Part shown: in pieces, positions 7,086 to 27,192 of the stretch | Numbering within the stretch: position 1 is the first letter of the stretch | Layout of the letters: each line of letters begins with the position of its first letter | NCBI GenBank assembly: GCA_005885245.1 | Contig: VAWR01000106.1 | Location: 1 to 37,772 of the forward strand | Length of the DNA: 37,772 bases | Reading direction: 5' to 3' | Source of the DNA: Actinomycetota bacterium | GTDB taxonomy: Bacteria > Actinomycetota > Thermoleophilia > Gaiellales > Gaiellaceae | The notes under the pieces: model-generated | The model's input: the letters and a program-made list of their open reading frames with translations, nothing else | What the model was told of the DNA's origin: nothing | The model's database searches: none | Made by a program: the position numbers and the translations under genes

Positions 7086-7325
7086 GTGACGGAAGATTCA
7101 GGCGAGATCTTCGACGACCTCTATCTCGGTCTCCGGGCGGGCGGAGCAATCCGCAAGCAGCGCCGGGGCGAGCCGCTCACCACCGAGGAACGGGAGGCGC
7201 TCGGCCGCTGGCAGCGGCTGTCGACGTGGCGAAAGGCCCTCGCAGTGGGCGGCTTCGCATTCGGCACTTTCGGCCTCGGGTTCACCCTGGGCGGCCTGAT
7301 CTTCGGTCGCTGGCGGAAGGCCTAG
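7086..7325 (+). CDS. Small membrane protein, unknown function
   Basis: A 79-residue protein starting at GTG 7086 (VTEDSGEIFDDLYLGLRAGG). The first half is acidic then basic and soluble. Residues of about 50-73 (ALAVGGFAFGTFGLGFTLGG) form one glycine-rich transmembrane helix, and the tail is basic (GRWRKA). I do not recognise the family. The gene has a well-placed -10 box and no Shine-Dalgarno sequence, so it is probably translated from a leaderless mRNA. Element A copy 1 begins 7 bases after its stop, and the first 12-bp hairpin there could end its transcript. Confidence 0.55.
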   Translation: MTEDSGEIFDDLYLGLRAGGAIRKQRRGEPLTTEEREALGRWQRLSTWRKALAVGGFAFGTFGLGFTLGGLIFGRWRKA

Positions 7326-7331
7326 CGGCCT

Positions 7332-7770
7332 CGCGGCGAAAGCTGCGCTTTCGCCGCGATCTAAGGTACGCCGCATTCGCGGGGAACGTGCGCGGGCGGA
7401 GCCCGCGCACTTCTCTGGTGTTGGTGCTGGGCGGTTGTTCTCGAACCGTGCGGGCACGGGCGCCGGAGGCGTCCGCGCCCGCATCAGTCCGCCTGCGGCT
7501 AAGCCCGGCTTCGCCTGGTCTTAGCCTCCGGCCCTGATCTTGCTGGTGAACGCGCGTTCACCAGCAGCACCGAGGGCCGGAGCGTAGACCAGGCGCAGCC
7601 GGGCTACGAGGAGGCCGACCTCACACGGGCGGGGACGCCGCCGGCGCCGCCGCCCGCGGACCACTTCAAGCGGCAAGAACAAACCCGAAAGGGAGCGCAC
7701 GGGCTTCGCCCGTGCGCGTTCCGCGCGAAGCGCCGTACCCAAACCGCGCGAAAGCGAAGCTTTCGCGCGG
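7332..7770. repeat. Element A copy 1: 439-bp giant palindrome with nested hairpins
   Basis: A non-coding stretch built of mirror-ordered hairpins. Left arm: a 12-bp stem with TGC loop (7332-7358), the end motif GGTACGCCGCATTCGCG (7365-7381), a 10-bp stem GTGCGCGGGC with GGA loop (7388-7410), a 15-bp stem (7450-7482), and an arm starting GCCCGGCTTCGCCTGGTC (7503-7534). Centre: a perfect 26-bp palindrome (7541-7566). Right arm in reverse order: 7574-7604, 7626-7656, 7695-7717, the end motif 7717-7739, and a 12-bp stem with GAA loop (7744-7770). Copy 2 is at 13763-14152. It explains all of the gap between the genes ending at 7325 and starting at 7862 except the last 90 bases. Confidence 0.85.
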
Positions 7771-7828
7771 TCATACGGAATTCATGCCAAGGGGGGCACC
7801 GTCCGCATTCCGGGGGTTCCGATGTTCT

Positions 7829-7858
7829 GCGTGTCAACCAGTGAAAGGACTGACACGC
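7829..7858 (+). promoter_or_regulatory. Leader hairpin with Shine-Dalgarno in the loop, before the TasA-like gene
   Basis: GCGTGTCA (7829-7836) and TGACACGC (7851-7858) form a perfect 8-bp stem. The 14-base loop holds AAAGGA (7844-7849), a Shine-Dalgarno sequence 12 bases from the ATG at 7862. The stem ends three bases before the ATG, so folding would bring the ribosome-binding sequence close to the start. It could tune translation, or be a protein operator. It is a hypothesis from base pairing only. Confidence 0.4.
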
Positions 7859-7861
7859 ACA

Positions 7862-8392
7862 ATGCTCAAGAAGCTCCCACTCTCGAAGATCCTCCTCAGC
7901 CTCGCGGCCGTTTCGGTAGTCACGGTTGCGGCGGTGGGGGGTACCTTCGCCAACTTCACCGCGACCCCGACCACGATCGCATCCAACGCCTTCGCCTCGG
8001 GCTCGCTGACGATGAGCCGCTCCGGCTCCGGAGCCATCTTCAGCGCCTCGGCGATGAAGATCGGCGACACGGCCACCGGCTCGGTCACGATCACGAACAC
8101 CGGCAGCCTTTCCGGCGCCTACTCGCTGGCCGGCTCGAGCTCCGGCAGCTCGGCTCTGTCGAGCCAGCTCAACCTGAAGTTGTACAAGGACGTCGACGGC
8201 GGCACCGCGATCTACGACGGTTCCCTCGGCGGCTTCAGCTCGGTCGCGCTCGGCACGTTTGCGGCCAGCGGCGACTCGCACACCTTCTACTTCCACGTCA
8301 GCTTCCCGACGACGGGGACGGACGCCGGTGACAACGCCCTCCAGGGCCTGTCTGCCAGCACGACGTTCACCTGGTCGGCGACGCAGGCGTAG
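7862..8392 (+). CDS. TasA/CalY-like secreted fibre protein with SipW-type signal
   Basis: A 176-residue protein with a basic start (MLKKLPLSKI), a hydrophobic helix (LLSLAAVSVVTVAAVGG) and the TFANFTATPTTIASNAFASG segment typical of SipW-processed proteins of the TasA/camelysin (CalY) family. The mature part is Ser/Gly/Thr-rich beta-type sequence with GDTATGSVTITNTGSLSG, the recurring family motif. In Bacillus, TasA and CalY form biofilm amyloid-like fibres; the family name peptidase M73 is historical. The next gene, 8 bases downstream, is the matching signal peptidase, which supports the assignment. ATG at 7862 is preceded by AAAGGA in a hairpin loop. The fibre role here is inferred. Confidence 0.8.
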   Translation: MLKKLPLSKILLSLAAVSVVTVAAVGGTFANFTATPTTIASNAFASGSLTMSRSGSGAIFSASAMKIGDTATGSVTITNTGSLSGAYSLAGSSSGSSALSSQLNLKLYKDVDGGTAIYDGSLGGFSSVALGTFAASGDSHTFYFHVSFPTTGTDAGDNALQGLSASTTFTWSATQA

Positions 8393-10384: not shown

Positions 10385-12115
10385 GTGAACGCCGCCGGAC
10401 TTCGCACGCTGCCGCTCGCGCGCGTGTACCTCGTCGCGGGCCTCATGGCCACTGGGCTGTACTTCGTCCTGCCGTGGAACTCGTTTTCGCAGGAGCTTCT
10501 CTACGACGCAATCGGTGCTTGCTCCGCGGTGGTCGTGGTGCTCGGGGCACGCATCAACCGGCCGCGGCAGATGCTGCCCTGGTATCTCTTCGGCGCAGGC
10601 CTGCTCGCTTTCAGCCTCGGCGACGTCGTCTTCAACCTCTACGCGCAGGTCTGGCACCGCGATCCGCCGGTGCCGTCCGTCGCGGACCTCTTCTATCTCG
10701 CCGGCTATCCGTTCCTGGCCGCCGGTCTGGTGGCACTCGTGTTGCGGATGCGGCGGCAGGACCGGCGGTTCGGTCTTCTCGATGCCGCGCTTCTGACCGT
10801 GGCCTTCGCGCTCTGCCAGTGGGTGTTCGTGATGAGGGGCGTCGCCAAGGGTTCGGCCTCCGGGACCGATCGAGCCGTGGCTCTGTCGTACCCGGTCATG
10901 GACATCGTCTTGCTCGCCGCGCTGGTCTTCTTTGCAATGACCCCGGCCTGGCGTACGGCCGCCTACCGGTATCTCGGCCTCAGCCTCGCGCTGATGCTTT
11001 TCGGGGACGAGGTCTACGGAGTGTCCCCGAACTCATATGCCGGGGCGTCCTGGCTCGACGCGGCCTGGCTGCTGTCCTACCTGTTCTGGGCGGTCGCAGC
11101 GCTCAGCCCGTCGATGCGCTCGCTGTCCGAACGGCCGCGCCCGAGAACGCCTGGGCTGACCAGATCGAGACTCCTCGTTCTCGGTGCGGCGCTCGGCACT
11201 GCCCCGGCCGTGATCGTCGCTGAGCGCGCGCTCGGCAGAGGAGTCGATGCGGACGCCGTCGCGATCGGAGCGACGGTCCTGTCGGCCCTGGTGCTTGCGC
11301 GCCTCGCCGGCATGGTCCGATCGCTCGATCGGCTGCGCGAGCGCGAACGCGTCGCGCGGGCGGAGGCCGAGTCGGCGCACCATCAGCTTGCCCTACGGAA
11401 CGAGCAGCTACTCGAGGCCGATCGCCTCAAGGACGAGTTCGTCGCGCTCATCTCGCACGATCTCCGTACTCCCTTGACTTCGATCATGGGCTATCTCGAG
11501 CTCACGCTCGGGGACGGGAACCTGACCGACGACCAGCGTGGCTATCTCGATGTCGTCGACCGGAATGCGGACCGTCTGCTCAGGCTCGTCAACGACCTCC
11601 TGTTCGTCGCCCGCCTCGAAGCCGGCCAGCTCGACCTCCATCCGAGCGAGCTCGATCTCGCCGCGATCGTCCGGCAGTCCGTGAGCGAGGCAGAGCCGAG
11701 GGCTGCTGCGAAGCGGATCGCTCTGACCTGCAACGCCGCCGAGCTGCCTGTGGTGCGGGCCGACAAGGGCCGTATCTTCCAGCTCCTCGACAACCTCGTC
11801 TCGAACGCGATCAAGTTCACCCCCGAAGGCGGCGACATCCAGGTCTCGGTCGCGCGGGTGAACGGCGCCGTGCAGCTCGAGGTCGCGGATACCGGCATCG
11901 GCATCGACTCGACGGAACAACTGCAGCTGTTCGAACGGTTCTTCCGCGCCTCGACTGCTGCGCAGCGCCAGATCCCCGGGACCGGACTGGGCCTCTACAT
12001 CGCCCGGGCGATCGTCGAAGCGCACGGCGGCTCGATCTCGGTCGACAGCGAGCTGGGCCGGGGAACCTCGTTCCTGATCGACCTACCCCTGTCCTCGGAG
12101 GCGGTGACGGCGTGA
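10385..12115 (+). CDS. Membrane sensor histidine kinase with about ten N-terminal TM helices
   Basis: A 576-residue kinase. Residues 1-310 hold about ten hydrophobic helices with the FVLPWNSFSQELLYDAIG and PSVADLFYLAGYPFLAAGL segments. From memory, this integral membrane sensor type also occurs in front of GGDEF/EAL enzymes in related actinobacteria. A short coiled coil leads to the HisKA domain, with phospho-acceptor His358 in ISHDLRTPLTSIMGYLEL. The HATPase follows with N box (NLVSNAIKFTPEGG), G1 (VADTGIGID), F box (LFERFF) and G2 (GTGLGLYIARAIV). All blocks are intact, so it should be active. The GTG start at 10385 follows AGAGAG. The single-domain receiver at 12300 is the natural partner, now separated from it by element B. 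Confidence 0.92.
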   Translation: MNAAGLRTLPLARVYLVAGLMATGLYFVLPWNSFSQELLYDAIGACSAVVVVLGARINRPRQMLPWYLFGAGLLAFSLGDVVFNLYAQVWHRDPPVPSVADLFYLAGYPFLAAGLVALVLRMRRQDRRFGLLDAALLTVAFALCQWVFVMRGVAKGSASGTDRAVALSYPVMDIVLLAALVFFAMTPAWRTAAYRYLGLSLALMLFGDEVYGVSPNSYAGASWLDAAWLLSYLFWAVAALSPSMRSLSERPRPRTPGLTRSRLLVLGAALGTAPAVIVAERALGRGVDADAVAIGATVLSALVLARLAGMVRSLDRLRERERVARAEAESAHHQLALRNEQLLEADRLKDEFVALISHDLRTPLTSIMGYLELTLGDGNLTDDQRGYLDVVDRNADRLLRLVNDLLFVARLEAGQLDLHPSELDLAAIVRQSVSEAEPRAAAKRIALTCNAAELPVVRADKGRIFQLLDNLVSNAIKFTPEGGDIQVSVARVNGAVQLEVADTGIGIDSTEQLQLFERFFRASTAAQRQIPGTGLGLYIARAIVEAHGGSISVDSELGRGTSFLIDLPLSSEAVTA

Positions 12116-12306
12116 GCGTCGCTCGCCTTCGGCTCGCTCCCGTGAGGGAAACCATGTTTCCCTCACGAGCTCCCTTCTTCAGGTGTCGCTTCCGCCCACG
12201 CGCCGCCGAGATCGCCGCGTGTGCGGAGGAGCAGGAAGGGGGAAACCTCACGGTTTCGCCCGACGCCCCTTCCCTCGCTCATCGGGCCGAGGCTGCCCAG
12301 TGAGCG
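12112..12306. repeat. Element B copy 1 at the kinase/receiver junction, flanked by GTGAGCG direct repeats
   Basis: GTGAGCG occurs at 12112-12118, holding the kinase stop TGA, and again at 12300-12306, holding the receiver start GTG. Between them are a perfect 12-bp hairpin with CAT loop (12141-12167; arm CGTGAGGGAAAC) and a second hairpin, GAAACC-TCAC-GGTTTC (12242-12257, extended by GGG/CCC). Deleting one repeat plus the interior would recreate a 4-base GTGA overlap of the two genes. Copy 2 at 27040-27192 shares its beginning, both hairpins and its end. Unlike copy 2, it has about 40 extra bases between the hairpins. Confidence 0.85.
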
Positions 12307-13762: not shown

Positions 13763-14152
13763 CGCGGCGAAAGCTGCGCTTTCGCCGCGATTGAGGTACG
13801 GCGCTTCGCGCGTAACGTGCGCGGGCGAAGCCCGCGCACTTTCATTGGTGTTGGTGCCTGCAGCTTGTTCGCTTCCGTGCGGGCACGGGCGCCGGAGGCG
13901 TCCGCGCCCGCATCGGTTCGCCTGCGGCTAAGCCCGGCTTCGCCTGGTCTTACCCTCCGGCCTTTGTGGTTCTGCTGGAAGCGCGCGTCCACCGACGCCA
14001 GAGCGGGCCGGAGCGTAGACCAGGCGCAGCCGGGCTACGAGGAGGCCGGACTCACTCGGGCGGCGACGCCTCCGGCGCCGCTGCCCGTGGACCGCGCGTT
14101 CCGCGCGAAGCGCCGTACCCAAATCCCGCGCGAAAGCGCAGCTTTCGCGCGG
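13763..14152. repeat. Element A copy 2: 390-bp giant palindrome between convergent genes
   Basis: It has the same order as copy 1. Left: a 12-bp hairpin (13763-13789), end motif GGTACGGCGCTTCGCGCG (13795-13812), a 10-bp hairpin with GAA loop (13817-13839), a 15-bp hairpin (13879-13911) and an inner arm (from about 13932). Right: an inner arm (about 14005-14034), a GC hairpin (about 14057-14087), the end motif 14097-14119 and a 12-bp hairpin with GCA loop (14126-14152). Its two end motifs are inverted repeats of each other. About 55 bases present in copy 1 are absent, including one right-arm hairpin. The last hairpin touches the stop codon of the AI-2E-type gene, so it can end both convergent transcripts. 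Confidence 0.85.
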
Positions 14153-15208
14153 CTAATTCTCCGCCTCCTTGGCGGGGAACAGGACCGCCGGTATGTCCTC
14201 GTCGGCCGGATCCTTGTCGCGAACGACGACGTCCACCAGCGTGACGAGGACGGCGACCAGCGGCACCGCGAGCACCACCGCAAATCCACCGAACAGGATT
14301 CCGACCGCGGTCACCGAGATCAGGACGAGCAGCGGCGACAGTCCGACCGCATCCCCGAGCACGCGCGGAACGATCAGATAGTCCTCGAGCAGCCGCACGA
14401 CGAAGACGCAGATCCCGGCCGCGAGCGCGACGTGCCAGGAGGACGTGAACCCGACGCCCACCGCCAGCGCGCCGGCCGCGATCGGTCCGATCACCGGCAC
14501 GATCTCGACGAGGCCGGCGAACGCGCCGACCAGGATGAAGTAGGGCTCGCCCACCGCCCAGAAAGCGAGGGTCAGCAACGTTCCGACCAGAACGATCAGC
14601 AGCGCCTGGCCGCGCACGAAGGCGCCGAGCTTCAGGTCGATCAGGTCCCACGTGTCGCGCACCTTCTTCCGTCTGGGGCGAGGTAACAGAGAGGTGACGA
14701 AGGCGACCGCGCGTTCCCGCTCGAAGATCCAGTACGCGGCCGTCGAGAGCACGAAGAACAGGCCGAGGATCGCCTCGAAGACCTTGACGGTCACCTCCAC
14801 GGCCGGATGCAACAGCGCACCAGCCTTCGGCACCTCGCGCAGGCGCTTGTCGATCGCCGTGAGGACCTCGTGCTTGATCCCCGTCGATGTCTTCGCCTCG
14901 CGATGGATCTGCGCCTTGGTATCGGTACCCAGGGCGTTCTGGATCTGGTCGATCGCGCGCGGTACGACGATCCAGAGGAAGAGCGTTAACAGAGCTGCAA
15001 GGGCGAGGTAGTGGACCAACAGCCCGACTCCTCGCGGCAAGCCGGCCCGATTGAGCCGGTCGATGCCCGGGCGCATGGCGGCAGCGAGGATGAAGCCGAG
15101 GAAGACGAGCGCCAGCACGAGCTTCAGCTTCCAGAGCGCCAGGACGGTCGCGACGATCGCGATCACGACCAGCGTCGAGAGCGCCACACGCTTCGCAGAT
15201 TCCGCCAT
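14153..15208 (-). CDS. AI-2E family transporter (UPF0118/PerM type)
   Basis: A 351-residue polytopic membrane protein with the family layout. Two N-terminal helix pairs (LSTLVVIAIVATVLALWKLK; LVFLGFILAAAMRPGIDRLN) are followed by a long soluble segment (IDQIQNALGTDTKAQIHREA and so on). Five or more C-terminal helices include LLTLAFWAVGEPYFILVGAF and GLVEIVPVIGPIAAGALAVG, the conserved Pro-Gly-rich block. Members export diverse small molecules or ions; the AI-2 name is historical. ATG at 15208 (MAESAKRVALS) is chosen because upstream codons run through a palindrome. It diverges from the PH-like gene at 15250. Confidence 0.88.
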   Translation of the reverse strand: MAESAKRVALSTLVVIAIVATVLALWKLKLVLALVFLGFILAAAMRPGIDRLNRAGLPRGVGLLVHYLALAALLTLFLWIVVPRAIDQIQNALGTDTKAQIHREAKTSTGIKHEVLTAIDKRLREVPKAGALLHPAVEVTVKVFEAILGLFFVLSTAAYWIFERERAVAFVTSLLPRPRRKKVRDTWDLIDLKLGAFVRGQALLIVLVGTLLTLAFWAVGEPYFILVGAFAGLVEIVPVIGPIAAGALAVGVGFTSSWHVALAAGICVFVVRLLEDYLIVPRVLGDAVGLSPLLVLISVTAVGILFGGFAVVLAVPLVAVLVTLVDVVVRDKDPADEDIPAVLFPAKEAEN

Positions 15209-22496: not shown

Positions 22497-23245
22497 CGTG
22501 CCGTCGCCTCGCTGTGATCGCCGCGGCGGGCGAGGAGTCCCTCGGGGGAAACCTCCCGGTTTCCCCCTTCCCCTTCCACATGCGCGCGGAGCTGCGCTGT
22601 CGCGCGCGCCAGCATGTCGTACAGGGGCTCGAGCTCAGGTCTGGCAGCGCGAATCGCCTGCCGGTGAGCCTCGACGGTCGACCAGTCACCGCGCTCGATC
22701 GGCCCCGTCAGCTCGAAGCCGTTGTCGATCGTCCGCCGCATGAGCGGAACGAGCGCTTCGGAGGGAGCGCCGGCGGCGCGGAACAGCTCAGCGGCGACCT
22801 GGTGAAGCGTGACGAGGTAGTTCGACGCGATCGCAGCGCCCGCGTGGTAGAGCGGCCGGACTTCGTCCGCCAACTCGAATGGTCGGAGTCCGAGCGTCTC
22901 CGCGAGCCAGAACCCGGCGCGCCGCGCTTCTTCGGACTCGCTCGTGACGGCTGCCCAGGCGCCGTCGAGCTGCTCTGGTCCCCGCGCGCGCGTGAACGTC
23001 TGCAGTGGATGGACGCCGAAGCGCCGCCGGTGCGGCTCCAGTGCAGCCAGCGGCGTGGCGCCCGAGACGTGCGCAACCCAGGGCCCGGGCTCGACCTCGG
23101 CGGCGACCTCGGCGATCGCCTGGTCGGGCACACACAGCAGGACGAGGCCGGCAGGTTCACCGGCGGCGACGCCCCGCTCGCTCAGGCGAGCAGAGACGGC
23201 CGAGCCGACGCGGCCGGAACCGATGACTCTGACACTCTCGAACAC
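22493..23245 (-). CDS. Rossmann-fold DUF2520 protein, candidate ketopantoate-reductase-like enzyme
   Basis: A 250-residue protein beginning with an NAD(P)-binding glycine motif (VRVIGSGRVGSAVSARL). A short Rossmann half is followed by HVSGATPLAALEPH and GVHPLQTF, then a helical C-terminal domain (YHAGAAIASNYLVTLHQVAA) of the DUF2520/COG5495 type. It resembles ketopantoate reductase and 6-phosphogluconate dehydrogenase relatives. It heads the panC-panB operon, and no recognised panE is present, so ketopantoate reduction is a plausible but unproven role. GTG 23245 follows GGAGCTAGGA. The last roughly 26 residues (including GEGGNREVSPEG) are encoded by a hairpin of the element B family and look like an added tail. 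Confidence 0.8.
   Translation of the reverse strand: MFESVRVIGSGRVGSAVSARLSERGVAAGEPAGLVLLCVPDQAIAEVAAEVEPGPWVAHVSGATPLAALEPHRRRFGVHPLQTFTRARGPEQLDGAWAAVTSESEEARRAGFWLAETLGLRPFELADEVRPLYHAGAAIASNYLVTLHQVAAELFRAAGAPSEALVPLMRRTIDNGFELTGPIERGDWSTVEAHRQAIRAARPELEPLYDMLARATAQLRAHVEGEGGNREVSPEGLLARRGDHSEATAR
22544..22567. repeat. Element B-type hairpin inside the end of the DUF2520 gene
   Basis: GGGGGAAACC-TCCC-GGTTTCCCCC is a perfect 10-bp stem with a 4-base loop. It is the same hairpin class as the second hairpin of element B copies 1 and 2 (GAAACC-TCAC-GGTTTC and GGAACC-TCCC-GGTTCC). It lies about 50 bases before the stop/start overlap with panC and is read in frame. Confidence 0.7.
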
Positions 23246-26475: not shown

Positions 26476-27043
26476 CGTCGCGACGAGCGCGCTCGTCTCC
26501 GACGGCGAGGTGCTCGGCGAGCGGGTTTCGACCGCCGTCACCTTGCTCGAGGACCTCGATGCGCTGCTTCGACAGGCAGGGACCCAGACGCGGCAGGTGG
26601 AAGGGCTCGCGGTCGGGATCGGGCCGGGCAGCTTCACGGGGATCCGCATCGGGCTGGCGACGGCGCGTGGGCTCGCACTCGCGCTCGGGACGCCCGCTGC
26701 CGGCGTCTCCACGCTTGCGGCGCTCGCCGCCGGGGCTCCGCGCGCCGTTCCCGTCATCGATGCGCGGCGCGGAGAGGTCTTCGTCCTGCAGGAGGAACCG
26801 CGCGTGCTCGTGCCAGGCGCGTTCCGGCCGGCACCGGGGACGCTCTGCGTCGGCAGCGGGGCCGTCCGGTACCGGTCCGTGCTCGAAGCGGCCGGGGCCG
26901 AGATACCGCCCGACCGTGACGAGCGGCACCTGCCGCGGGCCCGTTTTCATGCGGCGCTCGCGCGAAACTTCGGACCGGCGGAGGCGCTCACGCCGCTGTA
27001 CCTACGGATCCCCGACGCTGATAGAACCCGAACACGGGCATGA
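26444..27043 (+). CDS. tsaB: t6A biosynthesis protein TsaB
   Basis: A 199-residue protein of the ASKHA fold: MLILAFDTATDVATSALVSD (phosphate-1-like loop), then GIGPGSFTGIRIGLATARGL, the hallmark TsaB motif, and GTPAAGVSTLAAL. It lacks the metal-binding HxxxH of TsaD and serves as its platform partner. The ATG at 26444 overlaps the end of tsaE. The stop lies inside the ATGAGCG repeat that flanks element B copy 2, so without that element tsaB and rimI would overlap by 4 bases. The C-terminus is somewhat short but complete. Confidence 0.93.
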   Translation: MLILAFDTATDVATSALVSDGEVLGERVSTAVTLLEDLDALLRQAGTQTRQVEGLAVGIGPGSFTGIRIGLATARGLALALGTPAAGVSTLAALAAGAPRAVPVIDARRGEVFVLQEEPRVLVPGAFRPAPGTLCVGSGAVRYRSVLEAAGAEIPPDRDERHLPRARFHAALARNFGPAEALTPLYLRIPDADRTRTRA

Positions 27044-27192
27044 GCGTCGCTCGCTTTCAGCTGGCTCCCGCGGGGGAAACCATGTTTCCCCCACGAGCCC
27101 CCTTCTTTGATGTACGGCCGGTGGAACCTCCCGGTTCCCCCGGCCGGCCCGCCCCCTCCCCCGCTCGTTGGGCAGAGGTTGCCCAATGAGCG
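27040..27192. repeat. Element B copy 2 at the tsaB/rimI junction, flanked by ATGAGCG direct repeats
   Basis: ATGAGCG at 27040-27046 (with the tsaB stop) and 27186-27192 (with the rimI start) flank the element. The interior starts TCGCTCGC, as in copy 1. It has a 9-bp hairpin GGGGGAAAC-CAT-GTTTCCCCC (27072-27092) followed by CCCTTCTT. It then has a 13-bp interrupted stem, GGCCGG-T-GGAACC with loop TCCC (27116-27145). It ends in GAGGTTGCCCA, matching GAGGCTGCCCA of copy 1. Collapsing it to one repeat restores the ATGA overlap. Confidence 0.85.

Follow-up and report, generated by a model that had tools for sequence, protein, structure and literature searches.

What is the stretch at positions 7332-7770 of the window, and how has it come to lie between two gene regions? 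By the window we mean the whole stretch of DNA that was analysed, 37,772 nucleotides in length. An earlier note had described the locus as a giant palindrome made of nested hairpins in mirror order, and had suggested either a non-autonomous mobile element with terminal inverted repeats or a large structured RNA. Our analysis indicates that the element, called copy A in the following, probably belongs to a repeat family of Gaiellaceae-type soil bacteria, a family that is non-autonomous, encodes no protein and in build and behaviour resembles an oversized REPIN or BIME.

Anatomy of copy A

The 439 bp (about 440 bp) at 7332-7770 are non-coding and hold eight local hairpins in mirror order, and every part of the series was found where the earlier note had placed it. 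Its statement that the interval has no credible protein gene was confirmed as well. A 226-aa open reading frame at 7712-8392 was rejected as a candidate; it runs in another frame than the gene for a secreted protein at 7862-8392, which starts the downstream operon. This secreted protein begins MLKKLPLSKILLSLAAVSVVTVAAVGGTFANFTATPTTIASNAF, is presumably TasA/CotN-like, and is present in most genomes of the same genus and missing in genome G036.

The L half is read on the plus strand. Its outer hairpin H1 (7331-7359) begins 5-6 nt past the stop codon TAG at 7323-7325 and combines the conserved core GCGAAAGC-TGC-GCTTTCGC with a variable, compensated base. It is followed by the end motif GGTACG with the small hairpin CCGC-ATTC-GCGG (7365-7382), by H2 (GTGCGCGGGC-GGA-GCCCGCGCAC, 7388-7410), by H3 (7448-7484) and by H4 (7487-7536), an imperfect hairpin whose internal loop and bulge are conserved and which the covariance model scores at 72.6 bits. 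On the minus strand the R half presents the same parts inverted: H4 (7572-7619, 35.5 bits), H3 (7623-7661), H2 (GCGCACGGGC-TTC-GCCCGTGCGC, 7695-7717), the end motif (inverted GGTACGGCGCTTCGCGCG, 7722-7739) and H1 (7743-7771). Both outer hairpins have perfect 13-bp stems and 3-base loops. The outer arms 7336-7354 and 7748-7766 are complementary at 95%, and the inner arms 7450-7553 and 7554-7657, which meet with no spacer, at 72%. The core pattern GCGAAAGCN(2-6)GCTTTCGC occurs 4 times in the window and 0 times in 100 shuffles.

The perfect central palindrome of 26 bp (7541-7566, assigned to neither strand) is indeed present in copy A and specific to it; judged from the printed copies it is not a feature of the family, and a shorter central palindrome was seen also in the copy at site C123. 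To speak of terminal inverted repeats proved misleading, since hairpins form the ends and two inverted half-elements give rise to the palindrome.

The repeat family and its conserved hairpins

When the genome to which the window belongs (G000, 3.2 Mb in 213 contigs) was searched with the element, 34 matches were obtained, corresponding to 14 distinct copies; for this count the two strands of the palindrome were merged, as were the contig ends C139/C194 (a single copy in G005) and the contigs C60/C180 (common flank), and a weak 38-nt match at C93:45050 was left out. With others in relatives, the idea that the sequence might be found only here can be dismissed. The second copy of the window (13763-14152, plus strand) is 86% identical over query positions 1-331, after which a terminal part follows; it lies between two convergent genes, and the one on the minus strand has its stop codon (14153-14155) directly at the end of the copy.

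A full copy consists of two half-elements of about 200 bp, of L and R type, joined tail to tail in inverted orientation, and many copies are single halves or remnants. Each half contains H1 (core GCGAAAGC-nnn-GCTTTCGC), the end motif with its small hairpin, H2, H3 and H4; the two halves of copy A are about 72% alike or complementary. The split between L and R is the deepest one in a tree of 43 halves (100/100), with several genomes on either side, and therefore the composite is older than these species. In locus L238 (G005:C40), at site C71b, two tandem H1-like hairpins stand at one half-element end, suggesting a partial duplication of an end.

Among the 101 genomes of the family 20 matched the element, several of the single hits outside the same genus and the sister genus g31 being short and possibly due to chance; in the same genus 8 of the 10 genomes matched (G000 counted), with the longest matches. 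In the sister genus g31 the H3-H4 core was matched by the element search, and the order of the hairpins recurs there with a mostly different sequence, in an element of roughly 570-600 bp as estimated from printed sequences. The self-complementarity of three such stretches, flanking DNA included, was 50, 54 and 56%, compared with 55% for shuffled copy A, and thus the mirror in g31 is one of order, not of sequence. A phage or plasmid passenger was rejected: neither the phage records (50,697) nor the plasmid records (72,556) contain a match, and viral contigs scanned with two patterns gave none.

A second, unrelated repeat family of about 200 bp was recognized at 12110-12306 of the window, with partial members at 27037-27107 and 22510-22577. 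It starts at the stop codon of a plus-strand gene ending at 12115, has 36 matches in G000 and occurs also in G005, G036, G065, G077 and G058. It likewise forms a hairpin series (z -3.7) and has no similarity to copy A beyond short words.

The signature of the family is H4 (GCCTSCGGCTAAG...CTTAGCCTCCGGC, preceded by GCCTSCGG), in which an unpaired internal loop and a bulge are kept across genera while the inner stem is variable. The rows of the H4 alignment (A2) were chosen by pattern and its outer letters are fixed by design; most rows of L type in a blast-based alignment likewise show the loop and bulge. When 84,980 genomes were scanned with the H4 pattern, 37 stretches were returned from 12 assemblies (by accession prefix), all of them in MAGs titled Actinobacteria, Actinomycetota, Thermoleophilia or Gaiellaceae. 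The covariance search which the earlier note had proposed was carried out with an H4 model derived from the pattern-scan alignment and, for the class, under stricter filters: it matched 17 of 299 Thermoleophilia genomes, which represent 3 of 114 genera, all in the window's own Gaiellaceae-type family, with up to 20 scored places per genome. As far as searched, the repeat family appears to be confined to this one family of Thermoleophilia. In the window the model recovered both halves of both copies, plus three weak further matches. A weak match at 894-932 (20.8 bits, E 0.03), remote from the other element parts, is probably due to chance.

The position of the most conserved motif bears on a classical MITE, an element whose terminal inverted repeats are recognised by a DDE transposase that moves it by cut and paste. 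In favour of it, coding capacity is absent and the outer arms form inverted repeats at either end; nevertheless H4 is internal, the ends are hairpins whose base varies from site to site, which leaves no fixed terminal sequence, and half-copies are common. We regard a MITE as very unlikely.

The fold of copy A is far from random. Its minimum free energy as RNA is -318 compared with a shuffle mean of -220 (z -15.8), folding as DNA gave z -14.4, and a chance fold was rejected, 0 of 100 shuffles being as stable. When the base-pair span was limited to 70 nt, copy A retained 83% of this energy and 12 elements retained 73-89%; because so much survives the limit, most of the stability is local and does not stem from the giant palindrome. 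For the covariation analysis eight genomes of the genus supplied 40 halves. With the structure drawn from copy A, 94.8% of 1903 cells were paired and double-sided changes occurred in 24 of 50 pairs, 0 of 500 shuffles attaining the observed values; a slid-structure control, biased towards the structure of copy A, was paired at only 30-49%. H2 (helix 3) was paired in 97.8% of cells with double changes in 6 of 10 pairs, H3 (helix 4) in 91.0% with double changes in 10 of 16, and in the outer pair of the end-motif hairpin (helix 2) both sides were changed in 11 of 38 lettered cells. The local hairpins, rather than the giant palindrome, are the conserved feature. The part of the structured-RNA proposal that concerns structure is supported by these compensatory changes, which would fit RNA and single-stranded DNA as the folding strand equally.

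Beyond its constant core the stem base of H1 exists in 23 versions (no extension counted as one) among 46 hairpins, and this extension is compensated, with at least 4 bp in 36 of the 46. At site C123 the base includes the stop codon of the host gene and differs accordingly (TAG in G000, TGA in G036). Selection for the stem or arm-to-arm copying during replication would both account for such a compensated base.

A very stable fold with covariation is also what a gene for a large structured non-coding RNA would display. We consider such a gene extremely unlikely: the halves do not keep a constant order with respect to the flanking genes, copies are often reduced to single halves or remnants, they stand at unrelated genes, and no Rfam family reached the gathering score, the best weak match having E 0.1. 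A tRNA/tmRNA search found none.

Insertion at gene ends and likeness of the copies

The earlier note had named empty sites in relatives as a sign of mobility, and three sites were found to be occupied in some genomes and empty in others. Site A is empty in G082, and the element is missing in G049 and G071 too; site C123 is empty in G049, G071 and G082 and holds remnants in G077 and G005; the third is empty in G049 and G058 and lies between two genes which we take to be rnc and smc, as we take a further neighbour to encode DUF1059. Since the same places are empty in relatives, the copies were inserted; gain is more likely here than loss on several occasions. The rnc gene terminates within the H1 loop (TGA) in G000, reads through H1 in G005 and has its own C-terminus, with no element, in G049; insertion of the element into the 3' end of rnc is supported. 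These observations, with the 14 copies in G000 and the occupied and empty orthologous sites, uphold the proposal of a non-autonomous mobile element. A target-site duplication was not readable, the flanks of the nearest relatives being only about 80% identical, and transposition within a species was not seen. At the element-free site A of G049 (L161) the last ~45 bp of the upstream gene are tandemly duplicated.

The insertion into rnc belongs to a general placement at gene ends. By raw count, 24 of 35 records have a gene that enters the element and whose stop codon is -15 to +6 nt away from an element edge, and in 3 further records the stop codon is 22-47 nt inside; genes were called by a codon-position heuristic, and 8 of the 35 have no abutting called gene, of which L001 and L105 are a site whose short gene went uncalled and L005 and L009 are other ends of copies counted elsewhere. 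At several copies both neighbouring genes converge on the element.

This placement, at stop codons and often at those of two convergent genes, together with the compensated hairpins, among them the H1 stem base with the stop codon at C123, would also suit a 3'-end structure serving the host. In it the outer hairpins, standing between convergent genes, would act as strong two-way transcription barriers or protect mRNA 3' ends, and the symmetry would be of use to both strands. Against such a role, an intrinsic terminator scan gave nothing, no T-run following the G+C-rich stems; several genomes of the genus have no element at the sites, and neither 440 bp nor a cross-genus H4 is necessary for a terminator. 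Moreover, REPs occupy the same places without having such an origin (PMC3733652). A host-serving structure is in our judgement unlikely, and the inserted repeat family is preferred.

At least 9 of the 14 sites of G000 are also occupied in another genome (A, B, C93, C123, C30, C139/194, C45, C71a and C71b; site B was counted by its junction), and at site A and C123 the position of the left junction does not differ between species. The tree of 43 halves groups them by genome, with many inner branches weakly supported (29/40 open) and a tree model that recombination breaks. The median identity is 85.5% within one genome (109 pairs); between genomes it is 80.5% for different sites (137 pairs) and 80.2% for the same site (16 pairs, including C23 in G058, which with ~300 nt of other DNA intervening is not strictly the same place). 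A clade uniting the three site-A halves was rejected (p-AU 0.005). This genome-wise likeness likely reflects concerted evolution, that is, homogenised copies.

The order of the halves is not constant: at site C139/194 it is L-R in G000 and R-L in G005, and at the DUF1059-smc site G005 and G036 have opposite orders. Such flips could come from repeated invasion of each lineage, with strictly site-specific insertion at the same gene ends in place of gene conversion, and the grouping of halves by genome could have this source too. Inversion between the two arms explains them equally well, however, and the number of sites common to another genome would call for very strict targeting, while the left junctions of site A and C123 are the same across species. 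Re-insertion is therefore somewhat doubtful in our view, and homogenisation of resident copies is the explanation we retain.

Rearrangements were seen as well. In G036 the upstream flank of copy A is joined to the downstream flank of copy B through one half-element (L111), the intervening genes being missing, and G005 has the order rnc-element-DUF1059-element-smc where G000 has rnc-element-smc. Both the deletion in G036 and the difference between G005 and G000 fit recombination between copies. G071, however, is without most of the secreted-protein interval although no element stands at that place, so the loss in G036 is simply consistent with an element-mediated deletion.

Proposed mobilisation and relation to known repeats

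The following course of events may be proposed for the family. A trans-acting enzyme recognising the folded single strand would insert the copies, and recognition would most likely proceed through H4, in which the unpaired loop and bulge are conserved and the inner stem is not. Only insertions behind genes or into their last codons would survive. By recombination or gene conversion, resident copies would then replace one another's sequence, leading to homogenisation within the genome, and through this exchange halves may disappear or change orientation and the genes between two copies may now and then be deleted.

Y1_Tnp (RAYT-like) genes are present in 9 of the 10 genomes of the genus, with up to 7 per genome. 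In the flanks of 37 distinct genes out of the 43 found, covered by 43 records, neither element DNA (blastn) nor H4 (covariance model) was found; two short weak blastn matches (E 0.009 and 0.03) were attributed to chance. The second repeat family is likewise not near the examined Y1_Tnp genes. The number of copies does not track that of Y1 genes, G082 having 7 Y1 genes and 1 H4 and G058 having 1 and 20, and G031 and G095 have H4 copies and no Y1_Tnp match, with the reservation that MAGs are incomplete. By eye, several Y1_Tnp genes look orthologous between species; they may have resided there for long and been domesticated. In assembly VAXA01 the paired H4s were considered as borders of a composite transposon, and this was rejected: the intervening genes look ordinary, as far as can be told from reading their translations.

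A more far-reaching proposal can be formulated, which taken as a whole we hold to be rather unlikely: that these are lineage-specific giant composite palindromes mobilised through H4 by an enzyme outside the known RAYTs, which dock behind stop codons and rewrite them and then undergo concerted evolution, the copies at fixed gene ends converting one another. If it were true, the copies throughout a genome would act together as interchangeable 3'-end modules and as recombination points at which the genes between them are deleted.

REP-like repeats are mostly known from other bacteria, as short units, and two papers on REPs do not mention actinobacteria. A composite of eight hairpins which is held at its sites across species and yet is alike within each genome offers a natural test case for the homogenisation of repeats, and the family also tests whether recognition of single-strand hairpins can exist without a linked RAYT. 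It may serve, in addition, to study how repeats of this sort reshape gene ends and delete neighbours. Among open-licence papers none was found that deals with repeats of this type in Gaiella, Gaiellales or Thermoleophilia.

The earlier note knew of no described element with this architecture. In its details this is right, but BIMEs and REPINs, as described in PMC3116915 and PMC3733652, are close in kind. According to Bertels and Rainey 2011 (PMC3116915), a REPIN is an inverted doublet of two REPs of about 20-60 bp and is present in hundreds of copies. Like the REPINs portrayed there, our element has two inverted half-units in one long hairpin and is intergenic, non-autonomous and multi-copy, and its single halves resemble decayed remnants, as REP singlets do. 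The general traits of REPs and REPINs, namely imperfect palindromes, multiple copies, intergenic position and inverted pairs, were all found in the family. It differs from those REPINs in its length of ~440 bp, its four hairpins per half and its ~14 copies, and furthermore no RAYT was found adjoining an element copy (37 Y1_Tnp genes examined).

BIMEs (PMC2817692, PMC3116915 and PMC8266576) share with the element several palindromic units of alternating orientation in non-coding DNA; in our case the order is fixed and mirror-symmetric and the units are without the GTAG tag, their likeness to REP units being one of description. GTAG/CGTC-tagged REPs between convergent genes lie less than 20 bp from both 3' ends and often provide the stop codon TAG of an ORF (PMC3733652). 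Placement at convergent 3' ends and the supply of stop codons are thus shared, whereas GTAG precedes only 2 of 46 H1 hairpins and it is GCCTSCGG that precedes H4. For the E. coli REP, recognition by TnpA-REP requires a conserved mismatch or bulge in the hairpin (PMC8266576); H4 similarly keeps an unpaired loop and a bulge with a varying inner stem, any recognition of H4 by a protein being putative. From the MITEs the family is set apart by the lack of fixed terminal inverted repeats, the H1 base varying from site to site.

Because there is no GTAG tag and neither the element nor H4 lies near the 37 Y1_Tnp genes, we have not filed the family as a member of the REPs. It is REPIN/BIME-like in anatomy and location and is not assigned to the RAYT-mobilised REP family. 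What is new compared with the REP, BIME and REPIN kind, which was already known, is the unusual size, the fixed mirror order and, likely, the concerted evolution of the copies.
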